Below, piece after piece: positions 1,244-8,461 of a DNA stretch of 8,461 nucleotides. How positions within the stretch are numbered: the first letter of the stretch is position 1; each line of letters starts with the position of its first letter. The notes beneath the pieces are model-generated. The model searched no databases and was not told the origin of the DNA. It saw nothing but the letters and a program-made list of their open reading frames with translations. The stretch is from contig PWHN01000097.1 of the NCBI GenBank assembly GCA_003554945.1, positions 1 to 8,461 on the forward strand. The letters are read 5' to 3'. The stretch comes from a bacterium. GTDB lineage: Bacteria > T1Sed10-126. The position numbers and the translations under genes were made by a program.

Positions 1244-1380
1244 TCGAGAGATCAAGATCAAGGTCAAGAGCATGAGTAAGATTATGATAACTTAATGAAT
1301 TCGAATTAGCTTTGAGCTTTTGGCTTTTAGCTTTAAGCTGAATTAATTCCCCCCTCACCTGTATCCTCTCCTTGGGAGTT

Positions 1381-1524
1381 AGAAAGTGTGAAAGTGTGAA
1401 AGTGGGAAAGTGTGAAAGTGGGAAAGTTTGAAAGTTAGAAAGTGTGAAAGTGGGAAAGTTTGAAAGTTAGAAAGTGTGAAAGTGGGAAAGTTTGAAAGTT
1501 AGAAAGTGTGAAAGTGGGAAAGTT
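1381..1524. repeat. Octamer minisatellite, 18 units, purine-rich on + strand
   Basis: Exactly 18 octamers of the form NGAAAGTK (K = G or T) lie head to tail from 1381 to 1524. From about 1405 they form a higher-order 32-base unit of four octamer variants, present as three full copies (the first with one difference) plus a partial fourth. A period of eight cannot keep one coding frame, and no protein is proposed. The array ends about 65 bases before the -10 of the Nudix gene. Related arrays occur at 7561-7616, 7769-7808 and 7841-7984. Confidence 0.92.
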
Positions 1525-1588
1525 GGGAGATTCTGGAGGCGGAAGGTTTTGGAGACAAATGGTGAAGTTCCTATCCATGGGAAAAGTA

Positions 1589-1597
1589 TGGTAAAAT
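1589..1597 (+). promoter_or_regulatory. Extended -10 promoter of the Nudix/eIF2B-like operon
   Basis: TGGTAAAAT fits the extended -10 consensus TGnTATAAT with one mismatch. There is no strong -35. The expected start site, about 1604, leaves a short leader of some 20 bases before the ribosome binding site AGAGGGAG at 1611-1618. Confidence 0.5.
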
Positions 1598-1625
1598 CCA
1601 TCAAACTTTCAGAGGGAGTAAAAAA

Positions 1626-2048
1626 GTGAAAGATAAAGTAAAAGATGTTGTCAGCTCATTTATTGTTAAAGAAAACAGGGTCCTGCTTCTGAAACGAAGC
1701 GATGAGATCGGAACGTTCCCCGCCCACTGGTCGGGAATAAGCGGCTACCGAGAGGGCAACCCACCACTTCAGCAGGCCTACACAGAAATTGAAGAGGAAA
1801 CAAGAATTAAGCGAAAACAACTGAAGCTACTAGAACGCGGGGAGGTTTTTACAGTTGATGAGGAGGCGCCTGAGGGAGTGAGTTTCAGAATCTTTCCGTT
1901 TAAATTTACCCCTGTCACAGACAGCGAACTAACTATAAAACTAAACTGGGAAAACAGCAGCTTTAGATGGGTTGTGCCGGAAAAAATAAGAGAACTTCGG
2001 ACAGTTCCCAAATTACTTGAGGTCTGGAGGAGTGTAAACAATGAATGA
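1626..2048 (+). CDS. Nudix hydrolase-family protein with divergent Nudix box
   Basis: The 140-residue product has the single-domain Nudix layout: an N-terminal strand with VLLLKRS (19-25), the segment AHWSGISGY (33-41), and a Nudix helix TEIEEETRI (53-61). Nudix enzymes hydrolyse nucleoside diphosphates linked to another moiety, using metal held by glutamates of the box GX5EX7REUXEEXGU. Here the core glutamates E54, E57 and E58 remain. The box's first Gly, first Glu, Arg and last Gly align with Ser39, Asn45, Thr53 and Arg60. Start is GTG at 1626, supported by AGAGGGAG 7 bases upstream; no other start fits. Its stop overlaps the start of the eIF2B-like gene (ATGAATGA), so the two are translationally coupled. 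Substrate is unknown. An isopentenyl-diphosphate-isomerase-like role is possible but not supported by specific motifs. Confidence 0.88.
   Translation: MKDKVKDVVSSFIVKENRVLLLKRSDEIGTFPAHWSGISGYREGNPPLQQAYTEIEEETRIKRKQLKLLERGEVFTVDEEAPEGVSFRIFPFKFTPVTDSELTIKLNWENSSFRWVVPEKIRELRTVPKLLEVWRSVNNE
2026..2032 (+). promoter_or_regulatory. Internal ribosome binding site for the eIF2B-like gene
   Basis: GGAGGAG lies inside the last codons of the Nudix gene, 8 bases before the ATG at 2041. With the 8-base overlap of the two frames it indicates coupled but independently primed translation. Confidence 0.75.
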
Positions 2049-2943
2049 ATGGAAAGGAGAAATCCCGGGGGCTGAAGAACTGGGAAATATTTTTAACCGT
2101 GTTACCGCTGATAGAGCGAGAGGCTCGCGGGAGTTGACGGCTTTTCTGCTGGAAGAGCTCCTCGTCTGGTGCCTGGAGTTAGCACAACCTCCAGAGCGTC
2201 GAACAATTGAAAAGATCTGCCGGGAGATTGTCGAATTACGACCGGAAATGGCAGCACTAACCAACTTTGGATACCTGCTCTGGAGTCGCTTCCGGGACAA
2301 GAAGTCAAAAACCGGGGAAAGCTTCTGCGGTGCTTTGCGTGAGCTGCGCGCCCGGCTGGAAAAAGCCGACGAAAATATCATAAACGCCGCTACTGAGGCC
2401 AAACTAAACGACCAGGACGTCATGACTTTCAGCCGTTCAAGCACCGTCCTAAAATTAATTAGCAGCTCACCTACTATTGAAAAATCAGTAGTCCTTCACT
2501 CTTATCCCGGCGGCGAGGGAATTGACCTGGCCGAAGATTTATCCCAAGAAATCGACGTGACTTTTGCTTACGACGTAGAGGCAGGATATTTTTTGCCCAG
2601 GGTCGATGCCCTTTATCTGGGCGCCGACATGCTTTTTGAGGACGGTTCAGTGGTTAACAAAACCGGGTCACGTCTTCTCGCCCGCTCCGCGCACAAAACT
2701 CCGGTCAGGGTAATAACCGACCTCTGGAAGCTAGCCGACGGCGAGCTGCTGTCGGAAGTCCCCCGCTACCCCTCGCCGGATGAGCTTCCCCAAAAAATCA
2801 AACGTAATCACCCAATATTTGAGAGCGTGCCCGCAGATTTGATTGATACCTACGTCACCGACATGGGCGTATTTGAAAGCGTGGATAATTTGCTGGGAAG
2901 CACCGAGGAATTACAGCGAGCGCGGAAGGAATTCTGTAGTTAA
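2041..2943 (+). CDS. eIF2B alpha/beta/delta-like (IF-2B family) protein
   Basis: This 300-residue protein has the architecture of the IF-2B superfamily, which includes eukaryotic eIF2B regulatory subunits, archaeal ribose-1,5-bisphosphate isomerase and methylthioribose-1-phosphate isomerase MtnA. A helical N-terminal half (about 1-120) precedes a Rossmann-like domain. Hallmarks are TFSRSSTV (129-136), VDALYLGAD (188-196) and the DGSVVNKTGS segment (201-210), which carries the family NK.G signature. Asp196 corresponds to the catalytic Asp of the isomerases. The catalytic Cys, found in THCN-like motifs, appears to be Ser131, as in non-catalytic eIF2B-type members, so isomerase activity is doubtful. 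Bacteria have no eIF2, so a translation role is unlikely. Coupling to a Nudix protein suggests a phosphorylated sugar or nucleotide ligand; this is inference. The stop codon interlocks with that of the convergent regulator gene. Confidence 0.85.
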   Translation: MNEWKGEIPGAEELGNIFNRVTADRARGSRELTAFLLEELLVWCLELAQPPERRTIEKICREIVELRPEMAALTNFGYLLWSRFRDKKSKTGESFCGALRELRARLEKADENIINAATEAKLNDQDVMTFSRSSTVLKLISSSPTIEKSVVLHSYPGGEGIDLAEDLSQEIDVTFAYDVEAGYFLPRVDALYLGADMLFEDGSVVNKTGSRLLARSAHKTPVRVITDLWKLADGELLSEVPRYPSPDELPQKIKRNHPIFESVPADLIDTYVTDMGVFESVDNLLGSTEELQRARKEFCS

Positions 2944-3407
2944 CCCCTGGAAGGACAGTCGCCGGTATTGTAATACTCGTGAAATCCATTCAGCCAGCGC
3001 GGCTGCTGATTTTCAGGACAATTTTTAACAAACTCAACGAAACTGGCCAGTTTCTCCAGAGTTTCAGTGCTGACAGCGTGTTCAAGCTCGCAGGCGTCCT
3101 GACGGGCAACCTCGGGGTCTATTTTCAGAATATCAACCAGCAGCTCGAAAAATACCTGATAACGCCTCTGAATTCCCGCAGCCACTTTCTGCCCTTTCTC
3201 CGTGAAGTCAACATAGCTGTATTTTTCGTGTTCCACCAGCCCGGCTTCGGTTAGCACATCAAGCGCCGACGAAACACTCGGCGTACTCACCCCTAGGTGC
3301 TCACTTATCTCCTTAACTCGAACGACTTTTTTCTGTTCGCCCAGCAGCGCAATAGCCTTAACGTAATTTTCCATCTGAGGACTTAAATCGACGTCATCTA
3401 CTTTCAT
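2940..3407 (-). CDS. DtxR/MntR-type transcriptional regulator with altered metal-ligand set
   Basis: The 155-residue product matches short MntR-type members of the DtxR family, which repress metal-uptake genes when bound to Fe or Mn. A winged helix-turn-helix spans about 10-75 (VKEISEHLGVSTPSVSSALDVL, wing near 62-68), followed by a helical dimerisation and metal-binding region (77-150). There is no C-terminal SH3/FeoA domain. Cys106, Glu109 and His110 (CELEH) align with the primary-site Cys/Glu/His of DtxR. However, the N-terminal ligand positions of MntR (Asp8 and Glu11) correspond to Asn14 and Lys17, and the usual His after the wing appears as Tyr83. The ATG at 3407 has an AGGGAGAA ribosome site. 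It lies 126 bases downstream of aconitase on the same strand and may be co-transcribed. Targets are not evident. Confidence 0.85.
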   Translation of the reverse strand: MKVDDVDLSPQMENYVKAIALLGEQKKVVRVKEISEHLGVSTPSVSSALDVLTEAGLVEHEKYSYVDFTEKGQKVAAGIQRRYQVFFELLVDILKIDPEVARQDACELEHAVSTETLEKLASFVEFVKNCPENQQPRWLNGFHEYYNTGDCPSRG

Positions 3408-3533: not shown

Positions 3534-6194
3534 TCACTCGTTGCTCGTTAGAAAATCACGCAGAACGTAAGGTAATATACCGCCATTTTTGAAATAATTC
3601 AACTCAACTTCGGTGTCGAGGCGGTTAAGAACTTCAAATTCAAGCTTATCTCCCTCATCAGTTTTTGCCTGAACAGTTAACAGTCCCCCCGGGGACAGCT
3701 CATTCAGCCCTTTTATACTGAAAGCTTCCCGGCCACTCAGGCCTAAACTGTTTCGATCTTCCCCTTCCTTAAATTGCAGGGGCAGAACCCCCATACCAAC
3801 CAGATTTGAACGGTGAATCCTCTCGTAGCTTTCCGCGATCACTGCCCGAACACCAAGTAGCTCGGTCCCCTTGGCAGCCCAGTCACGGGATGAGCCAGTT
3901 CCGTATTGCTTGCCGGCCAGAACAACAAGCGGTGTTCCTTCCCTCTGATAGCGCATCGCAGCGTCGTAAATGGTAGTCTCCTCGCCACTCGGCCAGTGAA
4001 CGGTATACCCGCCTTCTTTTTCCACCAGTTCATTATCCAGCCGGATATTACCAAAGGTACCACGCATCATCACCTCGTGGTTACCGCGTCGAGAGCCGTA
4101 AGTATTGAACTCATGAGTTTCAACACCACGTTCTCGCAGGTAATCGGCTGCCGGACTGTTTTTGGGAATATCACCGGCAGGTGAAATATGATCGGTGGTT
4201 ACCGAATCACTAAGTCGGCAGAGACAGCGCGCTTCCAGTATGTCATCCGGTGGTTCTATCTCGGCTGATACCTGTTCAACAAAAGGCGGTTTCTTTATAT
4301 AAGTTGAATCGTCCTGCCACTGAAAGACATCGCCAGAAGGAGCATCCAACGACCTCCAGAGCTCATCACCGGCAAATACTCCCTCATATTCACTTTCAAA
4401 AAGCTCTGGTTTGAGCACGTCGGCAGCAACCGAACTAAGCTCCGACTGGTCCGGCCAGAGGTCTTTCAAATAGACAGGTGTCCCATCCTGGCCTTCACCC
4501 AGTGGCTCTGTCTCAAAATCTATATTAATTCTGCCGGCAAGCGCAAAAGCCACTACCAGCGGCGGCGAGGCCAGATAATTAGCTTTCGTATGCGGACTGA
4601 TGCGACCTTCAAAATTGCGATTGCCGCAAATTACGGAAGTGGCAAATAACCCCTCCTCTTCAATCAGGTGAACCAGTTCAGGGGCCAGCGGTCCGCTGTT
4701 ACCAATACAACTCGAACAGCCGTAACCAACAAGATCAAAATTGAGCTGCGAGAGCGGTTCCAGTAGCTCCAGGTCCTCCAGATACCCGGTTACGACGCGT
4801 GAACCGGGCGCCAGACTGGTCTTCACATGCGGCGGTACCTTCAATCCGGCTTCAACTGCTTTTTTGGCAAGTAAACCGGCGGCAATCATTAGCTCCGGAC
4901 TTGATGTATTTGTACAGGAGGAAAGGGCGGCGATTAGCAGGGCACCGTCTTCTATCTTATATTCTTCTCCCTGCAATTCTAACGAATATACTCCCTGCTT
5001 TTCACGCTCAACAGTTTCTGTAAAAGAATCCGGTATATCCGACAGACTGATATGCTGATGAGGTAGAGTCGGTCCGGCCACGGCTGGTTCAACAGAACTG
5101 ATATCAAAATCAATTTGCTCATCATAATCAGGCGCCGGTGCTTCCGGGTCGTAAGTTAGACCCTGCTGGCTATAATATTCTCTTGCTTTAGAAACGGTTG
5201 CGGGAGACCGGCCCGTAGTTTCCAGAAAAGCAATGCTTTCCTCGTCGACGGGGAAGTAGCCAGCCGTTGCTCCATACTCCGGAGTCATGTTACTTATCAC
5301 TGCCCGGTCGGGTAAACTCAGACCTCTAAGACCGGGACCAAAATACTCAACAAACTTACCCACAACGCCGTGAGCACGCAGACGCTGGGTTAATTTAAGA
5401 ACAATATCGGTAGCAGTTATATCGGCTCCTGGTTCTCCGGTCAACCGCACTCCAACCACAGGCGGGATGAGCATATAGAAGGGTTCGCCGACCATAACTG
5501 CCTCGGCTTCAATTCCGCCAACCCCCCAGCCTAATACGCCAAGACCGTTAATCATGGTGGTGTGAGAATCGGTTCCAAGAACAGTATCGGGATAGAGCAT
5601 CTTTTCACCGTTTTGCTCGGACTCGTAAACAAGGGAGGCAAGATATTCGAGATTGACCTGGTGAATAATCCCCTGCCCCGGTGGAACTATCTGCAGGTTG
5701 TCAAAAGCCGACTGTCCCCAGCGCAGTAATTGATAACGCTCGGAGTTGCGCTCATATTCTTTTTTTTGATTAAAACTGCAGGCATCGGCGGTTCCATATT
5801 TGTCGACCTGTATGGAGTGGTCAATAATTAAATCGCCACGAACCAGCGGATCGACCAGAGACGGATCGGCACCTTTTTCCTGCATAGCATCACGCAATGC
5901 GGCAAAATCTACCACTGCAGGAACACCGGTAAAATCCTGCATCAAAACCCGGGCGGGCAGGAAGGGAATCTCTCTATCTTCCCGGTCTGTAGAGGTAAAC
6001 TTTTGAAGTTCTTTCGGCTCAATCGCACCTGATATAACCTGGCGCATAACGTTTTCCAGCAAAATCCTAATAGTATACGGTAATTTGTTTAGATCAAATT
6101 CATTATCTTTTGCAAATTTTTGTAAATCACTTACAGAATAGGTCTCCCCATCGACTGAGAGTTTATTAACATATTTGTCCGAAATAGCATTCAT
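3534..6194 (-). CDS. acnA: Aconitate hydratase, AcnA/IRP1 type
   Basis: This 886-residue enzyme interconverts citrate and isocitrate in the TCA cycle, using a [4Fe-4S] cluster in the cytosol. The three cluster cysteines are Cys427 (SSCTNTSSPE) and Cys493 and Cys496 (GYGCSSCIGNSGPL). Other landmarks are the LGTDSHTTMINGLGVLGWGVGGIEAE block near 206-231, SDSVTTDHISPAGDI opening the swivel domain, YGSRRGNHEVMMRGTFGNIR, and the C-terminal YGTGSSRDWAAKGT substrate-binding loop. Length and domain order are normal and no frameshift is seen. The ATG at 6194 is preferred over a TTG three codons upstream because GGAGG (6205-6209) would sit one base from the TTG but 10 from the ATG. A two-membrane-segment gene lies 75 bases upstream and a DtxR-like regulator follows downstream. 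AcnA proteins can act as iron-responsive RNA-binding proteins, but that is not shown here. A methylcitrate-type AcnD or 2-methylaconitate role is less likely given its motifs. Confidence 0.97.
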   Translation of the reverse strand: MNAISDKYVNKLSVDGETYSVSDLQKFAKDNEFDLNKLPYTIRILLENVMRQVISGAIEPKELQKFTSTDREDREIPFLPARVLMQDFTGVPAVVDFAALRDAMQEKGADPSLVDPLVRGDLIIDHSIQVDKYGTADACSFNQKKEYERNSERYQLLRWGQSAFDNLQIVPPGQGIIHQVNLEYLASLVYESEQNGEKMLYPDTVLGTDSHTTMINGLGVLGWGVGGIEAEAVMVGEPFYMLIPPVVGVRLTGEPGADITATDIVLKLTQRLRAHGVVGKFVEYFGPGLRGLSLPDRAVISNMTPEYGATAGYFPVDEESIAFLETTGRSPATVSKAREYYSQQGLTYDPEAPAPDYDEQIDFDISSVEPAVAGPTLPHQHISLSDIPDSFTETVEREKQGVYSLELQGEEYKIEDGALLIAALSSCTNTSSPELMIAAGLLAKKAVEAGLKVPPHVKTSLAPGSRVVTGYLEDLELLEPLSQLNFDLVGYGCSSCIGNSGPLAPELVHLIEEEGLFATSVICGNRNFEGRISPHTKANYLASPPLVVAFALAGRINIDFETEPLGEGQDGTPVYLKDLWPDQSELSSVAADVLKPELFESEYEGVFAGDELWRSLDAPSGDVFQWQDDSTYIKKPPFVEQVSAEIEPPDDILEARCLCRLSDSVTTDHISPAGDIPKNSPAADYLRERGVETHEFNTYGSRRGNHEVMMRGTFGNIRLDNELVEKEGGYTVHWPSGEETTIYDAAMRYQREGTPLVVLAGKQYGTGSSRDWAAKGTELLGVRAVIAESYERIHRSNLVGMGVLPLQFKEGEDRNSLGLSGREAFSIKGLNELSPGGLLTVQAKTDEGDKLEFEVLNRLDTEVELNYFKNGGILPYVLRDFLTSNE

Positions 6195-6204
6195 TTGCAG
6201 CAAA

Positions 6205-6936: not shown

Positions 6937-6989
6937 TATCCGGCGTAAATAACTACTTTTTTGCCTATCTTAATCAAATGGTGATTAAC

Positions 6990-7535
6990 ATGGAATTAGG
7001 CCAGAGTTTTAAAGACAATCTCAAGCAGGCTGAGGAGTGGGTCCGCCGATTACGACGCTGGGCCGACCGAGTAGAATCCCACCCGAAAATGCTGGCACTT
7101 ATTTCAGTGTTAAAATATATTCCTTCTAACGGTGCTCAGGCGGCGCGCAGAAAGCTTGAGAGCTTGTTGGAAGAAGAACCCCGGTTTCAGGAGGAAATAA
7201 AAGTTGAAGGGGAGAGCGAAAATAACGATGAAAAATACATTTTTTCTTTATCAATCAATCGAGCTGAGCTAACAGTTACAACTAAAAAAGATCACTCCAT
7301 AAAAATATTTATAGACGACCAGTCAGTGGAAATCATTCACGGTGATGATCCAAGTAATATATTTTATCCGCGTATGAAGGAGAGAGTCTCCAAGACATTT
7401 GGGCTTGATTGGAGCGAACGCAGGGTAGAGATACTGACTGAGCAGGCGATTCACCAGCTTTTCAAATCAGAGCTGGACCGGGCCCGCTCAACACTGCGCT
7501 GGGCCGTCCAGGAACATCAAAAGATAGACTACTAA
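6990..7535 (+). CDS. Hypothetical protein, 181 residues, soluble, highly charged
   Basis: I do not recognise a family. The start is taken as the ATG at 6990, with GGTGAT 4 bases upstream; an in-frame ATG at 6978 has no ribosome site. Residues 1-70 look helical and basic (EEWVRRLRRWADRVESH; AARRKLESLLEEEPRF). A beta-rich middle follows (about 85-120: KYIFSLSINRAELTVTTKK, HSIKIFIDDQSVEII), and then a helical C-terminus (about 130-181). There is no signal peptide or membrane segment, and no Cys. It has its own promoter and runs convergent to the rRNA operon, ending 97 bases from the 5S gene. The good promoter, ribosome site and ordinary composition make it a likely real gene. Its function is open. 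Confidence 0.7.
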   Translation: MELGQSFKDNLKQAEEWVRRLRRWADRVESHPKMLALISVLKYIPSNGAQAARRKLESLLEEEPRFQEEIKVEGESENNDEKYIFSLSINRAELTVTTKKDHSIKIFIDDQSVEIIHGDDPSNIFYPRMKERVSKTFGLDWSERRVEILTEQAIHQLFKSELDRARSTLRWAVQEHQKIDY

Positions 7536-7560
7536 CGTCTACAGTATAAGGCTCTCAGTT

Positions 7561-7616
7561 TTCTAACTTTCCCACTTTTTTACTTTCCCACTTTCTTACT
7601 TTCTAACTTTCCCACT
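7561..7616. repeat. Octamer repeat array, 7 units, downstream of 5S
   Basis: Seven octamers run in register, using TTCTAACT, TTCCCACT, TTTTTACT and TTCTTACT variants. They are the complement of the NGAAAGTK family at 1381-1524, so this array is inverted relative to that one. It fills most of the 97 bases between the 181-residue gene and the 3' end of 5S rRNA. Confidence 0.85.
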
Positions 7617-7632: not shown

Positions 7633-7752
7633 GCCCGGTAACGACCTACTCTCCCACGGCGTCTCCACCGTAGTACCATGGGCGCTGAAGGGCTTAGCTA
7701 CCGTGTTCGAAATGGGAACGGGCGTTTTACCCCTTCGCTGTAGTTACCGGGC
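7633..7752 (-). rRNA. rrf: 5S ribosomal RNA
   Basis: The minus strand carries a complete 120-base 5S rRNA. Helix I is a perfect 10-bp pairing of the two ends (GCCCGGTAAC at 7752-7743 with GTTACCGGGC at 7642-7633). Typical internal segments include CCCGTTCCCATTTCGAACACGG and, near the 3' side, GGAGACGCCGTGGGAGAGTAGG. It lies downstream of 23S in the same operon, separated by an unusually repetitive spacer of about 310 bases. Exact ends are inferred from the helix and may differ by a base or two. Confidence 0.97.
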
Positions 7753-7840: not shown

Positions 7841-7984
7841 TTTTAACTTTCCAACTTTCCCACTTTCATACCTTCCAACTTTCTAACTTTCCAACTTTCT
7901 AACTTTCCAACTTTCTAACTTTCCAACTTTCTAACTTTCCAACTTTCTAACTTTCCAACTTTCTAACTTTCCAACTTACTTACT
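7841..7984. repeat. Octamer minisatellite, 18 units, inside the rRNA operon
   Basis: Eighteen octamers lie in perfect register between 7841 and 7984. The 13 units from 7873 to 7976 alternate strictly between TTCCAACT and TTCTAACT, a 16-base higher-order unit. The first five and the last unit are variants. Transcribed from the minus strand the array is purine-rich (AGTTGGAA/AGTTAGAA). It is the same family as 1381-1524, inverted, with the same unit count, and sits in a place where most bacteria have a short unique spacer. Confidence 0.93.
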
Positions 7985-8063
7985 TTGACACCAAAATCCT
8001 GTATGGAAGTTAAGAGGACCGCTTCTGAGGTAACCAGCCAAACAGAAGAAAAAATAAGAGAGG

Positions 8064-8461
<398 letters not shown>

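Follow-up and report, generated by a model that had tools for sequence, protein, structure and literature searches.

A Nudix and IF-2B-family gene pair in bacteria as a two-gene variant of a haloarchaeal fusion protein

The window, meaning the whole 8,461-nt stretch of DNA analyzed here, carries a Nudix hydrolase gene and an overlapping IF-2B-family gene that together form a conserved module. Their association goes beyond chance, as the two genes recur as a pair or as a fusion in unrelated phyla. The module is the two-gene bacterial variant of a haloarchaeal fusion protein that has already been annotated. Its IF-2B-family protein belongs to a prokaryotic branch of the isomerase-fold/eIF2B family that lacks the isomerase cysteine and appears to stand outside translation, and its Nudix partner gives a hint of the ligand that a protein of this fold may bind.

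Gene pair in the window

The pair, its start signals and the converging gene next to it are located as follows.

1613-1619, plus strand: Shine-Dalgarno-like sequence GAGGGAG upstream of the GTG of the Nudix gene at 1626
1626-2048, plus strand: Nudix hydrolase gene, GTG start, 140 aa; PF00293, 31.9 bits (cut-off, 21.1)
2025-2031, plus strand: Shine-Dalgarno-like sequence GGAGGAG within the Nudix gene, upstream of the ATG of the IF-2B-family gene at 2041
2041-2048, plus strand: 8-nt overlap of the Nudix and IF-2B-family genes, ATGAATGA
2041-2943, plus strand: IF-2B-family gene (eIF2B/R15P-isomerase fold), ATG start, 300 aa; PF01008, 97.6 bits (cut-off, 22.4)
2940-3407, minus strand: DtxR/MntR-like metalloregulator gene (PF02742 and PF01325), convergent with the pair, 4-nt overlap

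Both proteins scored above the Pfam cut-offs, which are gathering scores, and the purine-rich sequences lie 6 to 9 nt ahead of both starts of the pair. A preliminary description of this DNA had reported that a Nudix gene and an IF-2B gene overlap by eight bases; both open reading frames, the overlap and the Pfam matches were confirmed. It had also placed the pair under one promoter. A sigma-70 promoter scan of window positions 1250 to 3000 found no site, so co-transcription of the two genes is something that we infer from their overlap only. The IF-2B-family gene is present as a single copy in the source genome. Pfam matches bore out the earlier remark that neither an AMP phosphorylase nor a RuBisCO gene is in view in the window.

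The DtxR/MntR-like neighbor is probably independent of the pair. Beyond it lies an aconitase gene at 3534-6203. Tandem arrays of 8-, 16- and 32-bp units (GAAAGTGT, GAAAGTGGGAAAGT and their complements) at 1382-1524, 7560-7616 and 7845-7986 occupy the intergenic stretches ahead of the Nudix gene and around the 5S and 23S rRNA genes, both of which are on the minus strand (5S, 7633-7751; 3' end of 23S, 8063-8461). A 185-aa open reading frame at 6978-7535 matched no Pfam or NCBIfam family above the cut-off, and a CbpA-like DnaJ-domain protein with a partial DnaJ_C is encoded at 310-1017 on the minus strand.

Recurrence as pairs and fusions

The source phylum was represented by two genomes in the searched set. 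In the sister genome, the Nudix, IF-2B, DtxR and aconitase genes stand in the same order as in the window, with a Nudix/IF-2B overlap of 14 nt and protein identities to the window pair of 53% and 58%. A close relative of the source genome is the soda-lake sediment MAG CSSed10_354m; PMC6146748 describes the sediment data sets.

A scan for IF-2B relatives across bacterial and archaeal genomes yielded 31 loci. Among these, the same Nudix gene was found directly upstream of the IF-2B gene in MAGs of Nitrospira (L033), Geobacteraceae (L039) and two Proteobacteria (L037 and L046, Gammaproteobacteria), and in Poribacteria (L032) the two were joined in one fused protein. The junctions in five other pairs ranged from -14 to +15 nt: the genes either overlap, by up to 14 nt, or are separated by 5 to 15 nt. 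The two genes were approximately 4.9 kb apart in an Anaerolineae MAG (L040), and a gammaproteobacterium (L051) retained an out-of-frame Nudix remnant. When the IF-2B profile was compared with 386 bacterial genomes, 24 gave a match at an E value of 1e-40 or better, and only 3 of those 24 had an adjoining Nudix: the source genome, its sister and G519, which contains the second bacterial Nudix-IF-2B fusion. No strong match to the module Nudix was obtained in eight genomes in which close kin of the IF-2B protein stand alone. Searches of plasmids with the Nudix or the IF-2B protein returned nothing useful. The co-occurrence of the two genes in other genomes thus upheld the earlier suggestion that they form a module. 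A conserved wider neighborhood was ruled out; the genes flanking the pair vary between lineages, and therefore no pathway can be read from the gene context.

The remark in the preliminary description that the two domains are joined in some archaea proved correct. HVO_1934 of Haloferax volcanii is annotated as "NUDIX family hydrolase/eIF-2B domain protein" (PMC8576121), and a search of 246 genomes of one archaeal phylum, presumably Halobacteriota, gave many long open frames. Fifteen presumably haloarchaeal loci were fetched, a selection made for long frames rather than a census, and in all 15 a recognized Nudix domain or an N-terminal stretch of Nudix size was followed by the IF-2B domain without a linker. 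The Nudix domain was recognized by profile in 12 of the 15. Nudix followed by IF-2B is also the domain order of the two bacterial fusions. The window pair resembles the haloarchaeal fusions in its two domains, their order and the Nudix subfamily, as well as in the pocket residues described below, which were read from the fusions retrieved here. It differs from them in consisting of two overlapping open reading frames, whereas theirs is a single polypeptide in which some Nudix boxes have decayed. The likeness to HVO_1934 itself, a protein known here from the literature only, is based on its published annotation.

The decay of the Nudix box was seen in four fusions. In L232, the domain was still recognized by profile but had lost the box; in L228, L238 and L239 it fell below recognition, although its C-terminal segment could still be aligned. 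The Nudix catalytic glutamates were gone in all four and the eIF2B pocket was intact, whereas the other haloarchaeal fusions inspected had intact glutamates. Nudix catalysis is thus not always needed, and supply of a ligand by the Nudix domain cannot be universal.

Distances among the Nudix proteins followed those among their IF-2B partners (Mantel r of 0.92 over 21 pairs; 0.96 for bacteria), an agreement that must partly reflect species history and may reflect species history alone.

Properties of the two proteins

Pocket residues of the IF-2B-family protein were evaluated in an alignment placed on R15P isomerase structures, with 25 module members including the decayed fusions. The catalytic Cys135 (PH0208 numbering) corresponds to Ser131, and the 1-phosphate ligand Gln166 to Glu159, in the window protein and in 25 of 25 module members. 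Ser133, Asp196, Asn206, Lys207 and Lys230 were likewise invariant in all 25. Three of these, Asp196, Asn206 and Lys207, are kept in the window and correspond, in R15P isomerase, to the catalytic Asp204 and to Asn214 and Lys215, which bind the sugar. Position 67 is either Arg or Lys among module members, with Arg67 in the window, and the 1-phosphate ligand Arg22 is mostly replaced by His in the module. All R15P and MTR1P isomerases compared had Cys131 together with Gln159. The Ser131/Glu159 signature was also found in PH0440-type proteins and in most other nonisomerase members of the family.

The window protein scored 55.3 bits against the R15P isomerase equivalog TIGR00511 of NCBIfam (cut-off, 314.1) and 28.3 bits against TIGR00512, which represents MtnA (cut-off, 279). 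Membership in the R15P or MTR1P isomerases was ruled out by these missed cut-offs together with the replacement of Cys by Ser and of Gln by Glu. In the tree, the pairs, the fusions and the lone kin grouped apart from both the isomerases and the PH0440 type. A single clade of all pairs, fusions and lone kin was not rejected (p-AU of 0.45); the branch of the window protein is long and its placement unsure. The preliminary description had allowed for orthology to a characterized isomerase with a different partner; by its family scores and its separate clade, the IF-2B-family gene is not such an ortholog.

The window protein has an eIF2B-type fold according to its matches in sequence and profile searches, its alignment to eIF2B subunits and the fold match of the Poribacteria fusion, whose model (pLDDT of 89, pTM of 0.74) matched R15P isomerase and eIF2B. 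With R15P isomerases (PH0208, TK0185; TIGR00511) the window protein has in common the fold and the residues Asp196, Asn206, Lys207, Lys230 and Ser133, but it carries Ser for the catalytic Cys and Glu for the 1-phosphate Gln and remains far under the family cut-off. With MtnA (methylthioribose-1-phosphate isomerase, TIGR00512) it shares superfamily and fold but not the catalytic Cys. The nearest solved structure is 1vb5, that of the stand-alone archaeal eIF2B-like protein PH0440, at 26% identity; both carry the Ser131/Glu159 signature, but PH0440 belongs to a different clade. No Nudix gene was present within the stretch fetched at any of the Thermococcus loci encoding a PH0440-type protein.

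With Ser in place of the catalytic Cys throughout the module, sugar-phosphate isomerase activity is unlikely. Binding of a 5-phosphate ligand is likely, judging from the residues retained in the alignment. In view of the loss of both the catalytic Cys and the 1-phosphate Gln, the IF-2B partner would most likely bind a 5'-phosphorylated product of the Nudix protein without isomerizing it. There are two precedents for such behavior. An engineered C135S variant of R15P isomerase binds R15P without converting it (PMC5789824), and in eIF2B-alpha the isomerase pocket has become a noncatalytic sensor of sugar phosphates in which the space at C1 can accommodate nucleotides (PMC8187479). The window protein has the fold and an isomerase-derived, apparently noncatalytic sugar-phosphate pocket in common with eIF2B-alpha, but bacteria are not known to have eIF2. 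It had been suggested earlier that the pair may act on or sense one nucleotide or sugar phosphate; for the IF-2B protein, sensing is the half that we favor, and action as an isomerase is the half that the Ser substitution in all members makes improbable.

The Nudix protein of the window has retained the E-I-x-E-E core that binds metal (E54, E57 and E58), and these glutamates are intact in every intact bacterial partner too. Compared with the consensus GX5EX7REUXEEXGU, its box (TEIEEETRI) retains the EUxEE glutamates, with Thr in place of Arg, Arg in place of Gly and a shifted G-x5-E spacing. Its AlphaFold model (pLDDT of 91) matched the folds of NudI, MutT and Ap4A hydrolases with Z scores of about 16 to 17, and the structure search gave NTPase, Ap4A hydrolase and RppH structures at close scores. 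As NudI, MutT, Ap4A hydrolase and RppH are resembled alike, no substrate can be named. Assignment as an IPP isomerase-type Nudix was rejected (16.5 bits; cut-off, 105.8). Archaeal proteins in which the Nudix subfamily of the module is fused to other domains contained a MazG-like domain (L066 to L069; below the Pfam cut-off), a HAD domain (L090 and L091), a second MutT domain or, in one archaeon (L095, positions 1483-2250), the aconitase-X (AcnX) swivel domain PF01989. Fusion to nucleotide-processing domains suggests that the subfamily acts on nucleotide-type substrates or in nucleotide clearance.

Proposed working and alternative explanations

A pair composed of a ligand-making Nudix protein and a ligand-sensing IF-2B protein is plausible. 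More specifically, our preferred reading, which we regard as possible rather than probable, is that the window encodes the unfused form of the haloarchaeal fusion, in which the Nudix protein yields a 5'-phosphorylated product and a nonisomerizing IF-2B partner binds it. The Nudix protein would cleave a nucleotide-type pyrophosphate substrate and release an NMP or ribose 5-phosphate, and the IF-2B partner, in physical contact with it, would hold this product without isomerization. The partner would thereby serve as a sensor or effector, as eIF2B-alpha does with sugar phosphates, and would relay a signal or sequester the product. The conservation of the module, the gene overlap, the recurrent fusion, the residue changes in the pocket and the retained catalytic glutamates of the window Nudix protein are directly observed; the Nudix substrate, the ligand, the contact between the proteins and the downstream effect are predicted. 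Against it stand the four decayed Nudix boxes, the lone IF-2B kin, the nonconsensus box in the window and the symptomless deletion of HVO_1934. Single deletion of that gene made no phenotypic difference across 12 conditions, and a double deletion with HVO_2706 was viable, with growth described as wild-type-like (PMC3828320). Haloferax volcanii offers a tractable fused version, for which a deletion strain exists, with no phenotype so far.

The invariance of Ser131, Glu159 and Asp196 in 25 of 25 members is tighter than a passive pocket needs, and the sugar and 5-phosphate contacts are kept. The IF-2B partner could be an enzyme with new chemistry in a two-step nucleotide clearance. The Nudix protein would make a 5'-monophosphate from an NDP-sugar or from an NTP that is damaged or noncanonical, and the Ser131/Glu159 pocket, with Glu159 beside C1 at the site of the isomerase's 1-phosphate, would cleave an NMP into base and ribose 5-phosphate, or else gate it. 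The other nucleotide-processing domains fused to the Nudix subfamily would fit such a route, and an ancestral sugar-phosphate isomerase would then have been given a new reaction. However, the placement of Glu159 comes from alignment only, and the same Glu in PH0440-type and most other nonisomerase proteins means that this residue is no special mark of the Nudix partnership. We know of no related fold that cleaves NMP into base and ribose 5-phosphate, and we consider this explanation unlikely.

An explanation that we hold to be unlikely as well sees in the Nudix domain chiefly a scaffold, structural or ligand-binding, on which the eIF2B-like protein relies, with any hydrolase activity incidental. 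It would account for the 4 of 15 haloarchaeal fusions inspected that retain the domain, C-terminal segment included, without a Nudix box, but not for the intact catalytic glutamates in the window, in the intact bacterial partners and in the other haloarchaeal fusions.

Production of ribose 1,5-bisphosphate from PRPP is an activity of some Nudix hydrolases (Fisher 2002, as cited in PMC5389931, reference 140). The Nudix protein of the module might catalyze the same step, with its partner holding the bisphosphate and monitoring PRPP status. The binding of R15P by the C135S isomerase (PMC5789824) and the retention of Arg67 and Lys207 of the 1-phosphate site in the window speak for it. In the module, however, the 1-phosphate ligand Gln166 is replaced by Glu and Arg22 mostly by His, and a Glu at this site should repel a 1-phosphate, which leaves the idea quite doubtful. 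We judge it quite improbable, too, that the genes are neighbors without direct functional interaction, maintained by operon inheritance or by horizontal transfer as a block. The lone IF-2B kin and the separation of the genes in the Anaerolineae MAG agree with mere proximity; the gene overlaps seen in several phyla and the fusions of haloarchaea and two bacteria do not.

Bacteria are not known to have eIF2/aIF2. A role as a translation initiation factor subunit, under which archaeal relatives were once annotated, is very improbable in a bacterial host in spite of the resemblance to eIF2B-alpha, -beta and -delta in fold and sequence, and is further disfavored by the dispensability of HVO_1934, alone and with HVO_2706 (PMC3828320), and by the few interactions of HVO_1934 with other factors (PMC8576121).
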